Of a DNA stretch of 64,000 nucleotides, positions 1,487 through 62,566 are shown one piece after another. The notes beneath the pieces were generated by a model. The model did not search any database and had not been told where the DNA came from. It saw only the letters and a program-made list of their open reading frames with translations. Where the stretch lies: the NCBI RefSeq assembly GCF_003054705.1, contig NZ_QAYX01000021.1, positions 124,001-188,000 of the forward strand, in the 5' to 3' direction. The position numbers and the translations under genes were made by a program. Source of the DNA: Opitutus sp. ER46 (GTDB taxonomy: Bacteria; Verrucomicrobiota; Verrucomicrobiia; Opitutales; Opitutaceae). Position 1 is the first letter of the stretch. The number at the start of each line of letters is the position of its first letter.

Positions 1487-1844
1487 GGCGCGGGAGTTCT
1501 AGCGCGATCCGGCCGGGAAACACGTGAATTCTCGTCCCGAGCCTATTTCGGGGCACAGGCCCCCGGCCGAGATAACACGCCAAATCTGGCGTGTTATCGC
1601 CGATAACTCGCCAGATTTGGCGTGTTATCTCGGTATGGCGCCCCGGGTCGCGGTCGAACGAACGGTGCGGCGAACGGAGGCCGCGCCAGGGCGGGCGGGG
1701 GGCGGAGCGAAGGCGCGGCCGGACGGAGGATAGGGCCGGGCGGAACGGCGCGGCGAGACGGCAACGCGTGGCCGAGTGGAAAGGGACGGCCAAATGGAAG
1801 GCGCGGCCGACCGGAGGATGCGGCCTAACGGAAGGACGCGGTCG
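1487..1844. other. Gene-free 358-bp spacer with a double palindrome and a degenerate 17-bp array
   Basis: This gap separates two minus-strand genes. Its left part holds the double palindrome at 1567-1633, and its right part holds a degenerate 17-18-bp tandem array that reaches the stop codon of the glycosyltransferase at 1845. The 80 bp next to the start codon at 1486 should hold the translation signal for the left gene, but no clear promoter was seen. Confidence 0.7.
1567..1633. repeat. Double-palindrome element, copy 1
   Basis: A perfect 23-bp inverted repeat (arms 1567-1589 and 1611-1633) encloses a 21-nt core. Each half is itself a near-perfect hairpin of 28 nt (1571-1598 and 1602-1629) with stem word AACACGCCA and a 4-nt AATC or GATT loop. 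A second copy lies at 44860-44922 with the same 21-nt core but the stem word changed to AACTAGCCA on both sides of the hairpin. Paired changes of this kind indicate selection on folding. It could be a REP/BIME-like element, an RNA hairpin or a DNA-binding site. Confidence 0.85.
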
Positions 1845-39117: not shown

Positions 39118-39186
39118 TCTCCGGGGCGGGAGCCGAAGGGACGGATGCTGAACATTGATGCCGTGACCCGATCGGGGGCCGCTTCT

Positions 39187-39247
39187 GTGACGCGGTGACG
39201 CCCTGACCCCGTCGCAGGCAAACGGGGTCAGGGCGTCACCGCGTCAC
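39187..39247. repeat. 26-bp perfect inverted repeat hairpin
   Basis: Arms at 39187-39212 and 39222-39247 are perfect reverse complements around a 9-nt loop. A third related copy at 39256-39279 overlaps the stop codon of the response regulator gene that ends at 39275. It could terminate transcription from both sides, because the flanking genes converge, but there is no T run. Confidence 0.85.
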
Positions 39248-39274
39248 ATTTTCGGGGGTCAGGGCGTCACGGCG

Positions 39275-40295: not shown

Positions 40296-40314
40296 TTCCG
40301 GTTTCCCGCCCGCC

Positions 40315-40445
40315 GGCCTCCGGCTTCAGGCGTCCGGCCTCTGGCTGCAGGCTTCCGGCCCCGCTTCAGCGTTCAGCTTTCGTTCCTTCAGCCTTTGGCG
40401 CAGCAGCCGTCGTTCCTTCAGCCTTCTCTTCCCTCAGCCTTTCGG
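40315..40445 (-). repeat. Array B: RGANGCC heptamers and GCTGAA words after a stop codon
   Basis: On the minus strand GCTGAA-type words begin at the TGA of the gene ending at 40434, then nine exact heptamers fill 40315-40377 (GCTGAAC, GCTGAAG, CGGGGCC, GGAAGCC, TGCAGCC, AGAGGCC, GGACGCC, TGAAGCC, GGAGGCC). These words match the 19-unit array at 58498-58630. Confidence 0.8.
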
Positions 40446-44285: not shown

Positions 44286-44442
44286 TCTTTCTCTTCCTCT
44301 TACTCTTCCTCTTTCTCTCTTCCGGTATCCGTCAGGCGCTCGGGGTTTCCCCATCGCCGTCAATGAAGTCGCGTTGGCCATCATCGGTCGCGCGGAGCGA
44401 CCGATCGGTGAGAAAGAGAAAGAGGAAGAGTAAGAGAAAGAC
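44286..44442. repeat. Purine/pyrimidine inverted arms, locus 1
   Basis: A pyrimidine tract (44286-44321, hexamer words TCTTTC, TCTTCC, TCTTAC) and a purine tract (44410-44442) contain a perfect 22-bp inverted repeat at 44297-44318 and 44415-44436, 96 nt apart. The 20-bp word TCTTACTCTTCCTCTTTCTC at 44298-44317 recurs exactly at 62356-62375. Confidence 0.85.
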
Positions 44443-44859: not shown

Positions 44860-44922
44860 GAGATAACTAGCCAAATCTGGCTAGTTATCGCGGCTAACTA
44901 GCCAGATTTGGCTAGTTATCTC
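44860..44922. repeat. Double-palindrome element, copy 2
   Basis: A perfect 21-bp inverted repeat (44860-44880 and 44902-44922) encloses a 21-nt core (44881-44901). The two inner hairpins carry stem word AACTAGCCA in place of AACACGCCA in copy 1 at 1567-1633, with matching changes in the partner strands. The loop bases AATC and GATT and the outer GAGATAAC are unchanged. Confidence 0.85.
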
Positions 44923-58497: not shown

Positions 58498-58630
58498 GGA
58501 GAGCGGAGGCGAGAGGCCGGAAGCCAGAGGCCAGAAGCCGGAAGCCGGACGCCGGATGTCGGATGTCAGATGTCGGATGTCGGAAGTCGGAGGCCAGAGG
58601 CCGGACGCCGGAAGCCGGAAGGCGGATGTC
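58498..58630 (+). repeat. Nineteen-unit heptamer array (consensus RGANGYC)
   Basis: Nineteen contiguous 7-bp units fill exactly 133 bp starting 2 bp after the MFS stop codon. Examples are GGAAGCC, AGAGGCC, GGACGCC, GGATGTC and AGATGTC. Positions 2, 3 and 5 are invariant or nearly so, and variation is confined to positions 1 (A/G), 4 (any) and 6 (C/T), with two exceptions near the ends. It is not a CRISPR array, because there are no spacers. The related words occur at 40315-40377 on the other strand. Confidence 0.9.
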
Positions 58631-62347: not shown

Positions 62348-62375
62348 CCTCTTTCTCTTACTCTTCCTCTTTCTC
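62348..62375. repeat. Pyrimidine arm, locus 2 (pairs with 62539-62566)
   Basis: The 28-bp tract of CTCTTT/CTCTTA/CTCTTC words is the reverse complement of 62539-62566 at 26 of 28 positions. The difference is one swapped pair of neighbouring hexamers (GGAAGAG and GTAAGAG order). The 20-bp word shared with locus 1 begins at 62356. Confidence 0.8.
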
Positions 62376-62400
62376 ATACTCCTCCGGCCTCGATCCAGAC

Positions 62401-62484
<84 letters not shown>

Positions 62485-62524
62485 GGCGCCGGCTACGAAA
62501 AGGCCGGCGCAGCCTCAATCCCTC

Positions 62525-62566
62525 GAGAGAAAGAGTAAGAGAAAGAGTAAGAGGAAGAGAAAGAGG
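62525..62566. repeat. Purine arm, locus 2
   Basis: GAGAAAGAG/TAAGAG hexamer words run toward the GH28-like stop codon. Positions 62531-62547 pair perfectly with part of 62348-62375; 62539-62566 pair at 26 of 28 positions. Confidence 0.75.

Follow-up and report, generated by a model that had tools for sequence, protein, structure and literature searches.

The window analysed here, a stretch of 64,000 nucleotides from Opitutus sp. ER46, carries at two distant places a short double palindrome whose copies differ mainly within their stems. The question raised by this locus is whether such a structure is a mobile repeat, a binding site or a part of a transcript, and, if it is a repeat, what has spread it. 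A first-pass annotation, made from the letters of the window, had read the differences between the copies as the mark of selection on structure, in a REP/BIME-like element or a structured RNA. We followed the structure through the genome, through related and unrelated genomes and through the REP-like systems described to date.

Results

Two hairpin doublets in the window

Both sites share one layout, GAGATAAC-NN-GCCA-loop-TGGC-NN-GTTATC followed by a short linker and the mirrored hairpin (Table 1). The pattern AACNNGCCAAATCTGGCNNGTT, taken with up to three mismatches, has eight matches in the window, which are the four hairpins read on both strands and all lie at these two sites; shuffled versions of the window lead one to expect 0.01. 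The common architecture reported at 1567-1633 and 44860-44922 is thus confirmed. The larger inverted repeat that was said to enclose the hairpins is perfect in copy 2, where arms of 28 nt stand 7 nt apart, but not in copy 1 (1569-1631, GAGATAACACGCCAAATCTGGCGTGTTATC-gcc-GATAACTCGCCAGATTTGGCGTGTTATCTC), where arms of 42 nt are 88% complementary. Likewise, the stem differences do fall on both sides of each hairpin, as claimed, except in the second hairpin of copy 1, in which TC faces GT and one T-T mismatch results. The energy minimum of both copies is a single long hairpin; the predicted folding energies of the two are -59.4 kcal/mol (z -11.9) and -50.4 kcal/mol (z -9.3).

Table 1. Parts of the two hairpin doublets, in window coordinates
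Feature	Position	Strand	Description
Hairpin doublet, copy 1	1569..1631	.	left hairpin of AC/GT type; from pattern and repeat scans
Copy 1 with CCGA...TCGG edges	1567..1633		edges widen the doublet
Copy 1, left hairpin	1571..1598	+	GATAAC-AC-GCCA-AATC-TGGC-GT-GTTATC
Copy 1, linker	1599..1601	.	3 nt, differs among family copies
Copy 1, right hairpin	1602..1629	-	inverted, loop GATT, one T-T mismatch in NN
Hairpin doublet, copy 2	44860..44922	.	TA/TA type
Copy 2, left hairpin	44862..44889	+	GATAAC-TA-GCCA-AATC-TGGC-TA-GTTATC
Copy 2, linker	44890..44892	.	3 nt
Copy 2, right hairpin	44893..44920	-	inverted, loop GATT

A repeat family within one genome

Across the 5.71 Mb of the genome (25 contigs), the single-hairpin pattern with up to three mismatches is matched 72 times on the forward and 66 times on the reverse strand, and the reversed pattern, used as a control over the same sequence, never. 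A covariance model (R1) was built from an alignment of 22 doublets (A1); it gives copy 1, which is among its building sequences, 92.9 bits. On the genome it returned 86 strand-wise matches with E <=10 among the 150 of 1007 first-look candidates that were scored, a share at which weak copies may be missed. Reading the DNA around the model matches gave 43 elements, namely 38 doublets and 5 single hairpins, which together hold 81 hairpins of 28 nt. The annotation had named absence of the pattern from the rest of the genome as the result that would make the likeness of its two copies a coincidence, and these elements were found instead. The core is 59 nt long in 37 doublets, one of them with an indel in the second hairpin, and 60 nt long in the remaining one.

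The flanks of the copies are unrelated to each other, save those of the elements at C21:4371 and C21:6957 (contig and position), which have a common right flank and look like a duplicated segment. The stretch that these two doublets span (L098, 4371-7015), about 2.6 kb, holds the remnant of a Y1 element end. Genome-wide, 77 of 77 exact GAGATAACNNGCCA half-sites fall within the listed elements, a count on which we rejected the possibility that the hairpins are the ends of a larger transposon; a half-site pattern without GATAAC finds one lone half-site, at C22:456578.

Conserved blocks and covariation

Conservation was measured in the 36 gapless doublets (alignment A2), that is, in all elements but the 5 single hairpins and two doublets with indels. 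Changes from the consensus are missing from the outer TAAC blocks (0/288) and almost missing from the GCCA/TGGC blocks (1/576), and number 10/288 in the inner TAAC blocks. The outer edges are changed at 3 of 144 positions against 52 of 144 for the inner edges, the linker at 51 of 108 and the loops at 45 of 288. The bases of the loops, which had been thought to stay fixed, include AATC, GATT, GATC, ATTC, AATT and AAAC across the family. At the NN positions 130 of 288 bases depart from the consensus, and 30 of 288 when each is compared with the nearer of two main arm types. The stem therefore consists of two read-out blocks parted by two positions whose sequence is free, with outer ends that are kept and inner ends that are not. 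If the doublet, rather than the hairpin, is what is copied, this inequality of outer and inner ends would be expected, as in the REPINs of Bertels and Rainey (2011, PMC3116915). The copies were found through patterns and a model based on the core, which exaggerates the conservation of the core; it offers no explanation for the difference between outer and inner halves.

The arms of 74 hairpins could be typed, and 48 belong exactly to the two main types (TA/TA 25, AC/GT 23); the other compensated types are TC/GA (2) and GC/GC (1), and 25 of 148 NN pairs are not Watson-Crick. When the 36 copies are scored as two hairpins, 8 pairs and 58 cells are changed on both sides (score 0.138), and among 500 shuffles the pair count was reached 18 times and the cell count never. 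Scored as one long hairpin (0.123), the copies also exceed all shuffles in cell count and score, and 435 of 500 shuffles reached the count of doubly changed pairs. G-U pairs occur at a few positions of the doublets. Nine of 37 doublets are discordant, and seven of these, one with an indel, fit two hairpins better. Mixed doublets such as C13:40680 and C25:210643 combine one TA/TA and one AC/GT hairpin, each keeping its own pairing; for C23:337756 and C22:164931 the long hairpin is the better fit. The copies thus weakly favour the two-hairpin fold over one long hairpin. The covariation from which the annotation had argued for selection on structure is real and beats shuffled alignments, but it is modest: it consists mostly of two arm types, the non-Watson-Crick pairs run against it, and most of the double changes in the hairpin arms may trace to one split. 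Selection on structure is supported, less strongly than the two copies implied.

Placement and polarity

Genes were called with a caller of our own that tolerates overlaps of 20 nt. None of the 43 elements lies inside a called gene, though 75% of the sequence examined is called coding, and one overlaps a gene end by 5 nt. Forty elements have a neighbour on both sides, 19 in tandem, 16 in convergent and 5 in divergent gaps. Convergent gaps are over-used (16 of 40 elements against 16 of 124 other gaps, Fisher p 0.0004), with a background that is approximate, as it assumes one gap per element and the pair C21:4371 and C21:6957 violates this. REPs are likewise reported to prefer convergent and unidirectional gaps (Di Nocera 2013, PMC3733652). 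A common gene neighbourhood was rejected: among the 81 neighbouring proteins (those above 600 aa cut to 400 aa), each Pfam family is present in at most three.

The elements appear to have a direction. The dinucleotide AA at positions -8..-5 stands on one side only in 27 of 43 elements, on both in one and on neither in 15 (permutation p 0.009, for a window picked after the flanks had been viewed), and its frequency per flank is 0.337 compared with a mean of 0.105 in shifted windows. For AAA at the same positions the figures are 17, 0 and 26, a result short of significance (p 0.14). Among the five single hairpins, C18:126897 and C24:62210 are flanked by AAAC at one end and by TCGGA at the other, a combination missing from the other three, and at least these two look like doublets that have lost their centre; a similar product arises when an inverted REP dimer undergoes central deletion (Quentin 2018, PMC6006769). 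The symmetric boundaries of the 43 elements, compared over lengths of 3-9 nt, reveal no consistent duplication of the target, and the few duplication matches above shuffled pairing are single elements. A MITE of the kind that duplicates its target was rejected on this ground.

Occurrence in other genomes

The annotation had proposed a search of the complete genome and of related Opitutaceae, and the outcome is divided: the family abounds at home and was not found among relatives. With the R/Y-loop pattern and up to three mismatches, the hairpin was found in none of 26 congeners, 16 of which reach 90% completeness with no more than 5% contamination (10 of the 27 genomes of the genus, its own included, fail this pair of limits). 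Model R1 had no match in 249 other genomes of the family, at 20 candidates per genome and with stricter filters that may likewise pass over weak copies, in a set of 250 of which 85 fail the same limits. The sole other match in a draw of 150 family genomes was one lone hairpin with three mismatches. The strict exact pattern had no match among 84,980 species genomes, a set from which the own genome may be left out; a looser pattern had four lone matches there in unrelated organisms, which we read as chance and rejected as family members. Plasmids, phages and viral contigs gave no match.

A scan for double hairpins of any sequence, which recovers both known sites of the window, was run on 400 kb of the approximately 6.4 Mb of one congener (G161) and found five sites, none alike by eye; a doublet family of other sequence in that congener was rejected accordingly. 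An empty site could not be shown in the one region tried, around C17:130878: the gene to the right has alignments in 24 of 26 congeners (73-82% identity), whereas the left side and the place of the element have none. Open-licence papers, searched by 12-mers and for palindromic repeats of Opitutus and Opitutaceae, yielded no description of the hairpin repeat.

Y1 transposases and other repeats

The annotation had also suggested a check for a RAYT-type transposase gene. The Pfam family PF01797 has 13 matches in the genome, 12 of them above the cut-off; twelve of the open frames are 322-336 aa long and the thirteenth 82 aa. The usual RAYT gene is short, and none of these matches is a short gene of that size. 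Candidate Y1 genes thus exist, but none is directly flanked by the hairpin: it is missing from the flanks, at most 1.5 kb each, that were examined around the 13 matches, and a REPtron, a RAYT gene flanked by its cognate repeat, was not found among them. The closest element lies 961 bp from a Y1 frame (C25:3599), followed by elements at 2.5 kb (C22:36121), 2.7 to 4.7 kb (C20:10707, three Y1 matches) and 2.9 kb (C21:4371); the remaining Y1 matches with an element on the same contig are at least 39 kb away, and contig C11 is without an element. Taken by region, 4 of 11 Y1 regions (six Y1 matches) are within 5 kb of an element where 0.9 would be expected (p about 0.01). This nearness supports a Y1 enzyme as the mover. 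Three of the four near regions lie close to contig ends, where mobile DNA gathers, and the nearness may reflect only contig ends and other regions rich in mobile DNA. Twelve Y1 loci (L042 left out) end in GGGGACAG, GGGGTCAG or GGGGTCAT, which by eye are unrelated to the hairpin. Y1 matches occur in 23 of 27 genomes of the genus including the own one, and in 22 of 26 congeners, all of which are without the hairpin. An IS110 partner was rejected: the one PF02371 match (C24:142945) is about 36 kb from the nearest listed element.

Several other repeats were seen in passing. A Y1 element of about 1.28 kb is present in multiple copies (L034-L040 and L042, on C22, C23, C19 and C20) that are about 90-96% identical and end in GGGGACAGACA and TGTCCGTCCCC, several with repeated 3' ends. 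The window itself holds at 39186-39248 a hairpin whose stem measures 27 bp, TGTGACGCGGTGACGCCCTGACCCC...; it has a similar counterpart at C16:83606, and a relative of it lies at C22:490760 near a Y1 transposase gene. It has the look of a terminal-repeat hairpin from a Y1 element of the TIR type. Another hairpin that recurs, CAGTTTTCGC...GCGAAAACTG, was met at C13:40743, C18:380248, C21:9092 and C20:11967 (L083, L091, L098 and L105), and at the C13 site it directly adjoins a doublet. Degenerate tracts of short units resembling GGCCTCCGGCTTC and GAGAAAGAGTAAG lie at 40313-40395, 58504-58626, 44286-44441 and 62348-62566 of the window and recur in several of the other loci examined.

Discussion

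The reading that we prefer, at a probability of roughly 0.6, is that the hairpin doublet is REPIN-like mobile DNA, specific to this lineage and non-autonomous, and that an enzyme acting in trans, most plausibly an HUH (Y1) transposase, moves it. We infer mobility, a single-stranded intermediate and the class of the enzyme, the last of these from a hairpin substrate, the lack of target duplication, polar ends and the Y1 genes nearby. The spreading unit would be the 63-nt doublet, acting as one polar unit and most likely moving as single-stranded DNA folded into hairpins. A transposase of the HUH type (Y1, IS200/RAYT-like) would handle it in trans, reading the two outer ends (GAGATAAC.../...GTTATCTC) together with both blocks, TAAC and GCCA, in each stem; for the two base pairs that part these blocks, pairing would be the main requirement, and the linker and inner ends would be free. 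Insertion would take place between genes without target duplication, with the AA(A)C motif marking either one end or a target preference, and the doublet would spread within one lineage and accumulate where it does least harm. Several findings weigh against this reading: no partner transposase was found, the local Y1 loci have other ends, most congeners carry Y1 matches and not the hairpin, the GTAG and CGTC tags are missing, an empty site could not be shown in the one region tried, and the polarity is significant for AA and not for AAA. A related view, which we hold to be doubtful though worth keeping in sight, is that a tag-less polar doublet confined to a single species is served by a non-RAYT enzyme that reads the TAAC and GCCA blocks across a paired but otherwise free two-base spacer, and so represents a further REP-like system.

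Near-invariant blocks on either side of a free two-base spacer also resemble the read-out of a protein, and the intergenic, often convergent placement would suit a double palindrome of 63 nt that serves a nucleoid, gyrase-like or regulatory protein as binding site and is selected by the host site by site. Sites with a host function would be expected in relatives, though, and the doublets were found neither in the 26 congeners nor in the family sample; the lack of a recurrent protein family among the neighbours and the unequal conservation of the outer and the inner half within single hairpins also speak against such sites, which we regard as improbable. Convergent placement is equally what one would look for in transcribed hairpins at the 3' ends of genes, serving as terminators or as barriers to RNase, and the great predicted stability of the window copies and the G-U pairs at a few positions of the family agree with this. 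By eye, however, no run of T follows the elements in the listed flanks, tandem placements with clear polarity are even in orientation (7 against 6), and 5 of the 40 placed elements lie between divergent genes. The structured RNA considered by the annotation finds little specific support either, being confined to one genome and variable in its loop; at the gathering score Rfam has no match in the window, and only one tRNA in six further loci. An RNA element accordingly seems to us more improbable still. Least probable is a MITE of a DDE-type insertion sequence: the elements are short and intergenic and have terminal inverted repeats, as such a MITE would, yet they show no consistent target duplication, no larger element has these ends, and each of the two halves folds by itself into a hairpin, its stem 12 bp and its loop 4 nt long.

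Where the mover of REP-like repeats is known, the repeats bear GTAG tags and are paired with RAYTs. A clean family that has neither GTAG tag nor RAYT, and often with other-ended Y1 genes in its vicinity, makes it testable whether the mover of an untagged hairpin is a general HUH enzyme or another one, and which bases the moving enzyme reads.

The annotation's comparison with REP/BIME elements holds as to kind, since this is a real repeat family, but the REP tags are missing and no Y1 gene is flanked by the hairpin. Under a broad definition of REPs (palindromes of 20-40 bp, in many copies, mainly extragenic) the family is included, and the inverted doublet with conserved outer ends, which marks a REPIN, prevails by plain count, in 38 of 43 elements. 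As described by Bertels and Rainey (2011, PMC3116915), REPINs are alike in that inverted doublets exceed singlets, lie outside genes, carry compensatory changes and conserve their outer ends more than their middle. Unlike REPINs, the present family is without GTAG tag and linked RAYT, each half is a 12-bp hairpin, and the linker is 3 nt long, whereas in a GI doublet 71 bp separate the starts of the two 16-mers (PMC3116915). None of the 86 outer edges carries GTAG itself, whichever way it is read; the set GTAG/GTGG/GCAG is at 5 of 86 against 7.3% in the control, and CGTC/TGTC/CCTC at 8 of 86 against 7.6% in random flanks. By these tests the family, REP- and REPIN-like in behaviour, is outside the GTAG and CGTC superfamilies and outside REPtrons.

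Di Nocera (2013, PMC3733652) places O. terrae among the Verrucomicrobia and describes it as abounding in GTAG repeats (GTAG-17, -19 and -20), from which the hairpin family is set apart by tag and stem length. Dimers of GTAG-17 and GTAG-19 similarly have only 1-2 bp between the partners; most GTAG families have stems of 6-9 bp in contrast to the 12 bp here, and GTAG-24 has 12-13 (PMC3733652). CGTC REPs also are palindromes mostly in dimers, with loops of 4-5 nt and no associated transposase gene, but have stems of 8-9 bp and a tag that is here at background (PMC3733652). The ends GGGGACAG or GGGGTCAG of the local Y1 transposases of about 330 aa fit the GGGGWSAS of TIRtrons (TIRYT) in that source, and one local Y1 type has GGGGTCAT ends; by eye these TIRtron-like ends and the doublet have nothing in common. 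Unlike subclass 2.6 of TnpA-Y1, no Y1 gene here is directly flanked by the hairpin, yet that subclass (Quentin 2018, PMC6006769) provides a precedent for untagged (atypical) hairpins beside Y1 genes and makes the present family slightly less new.
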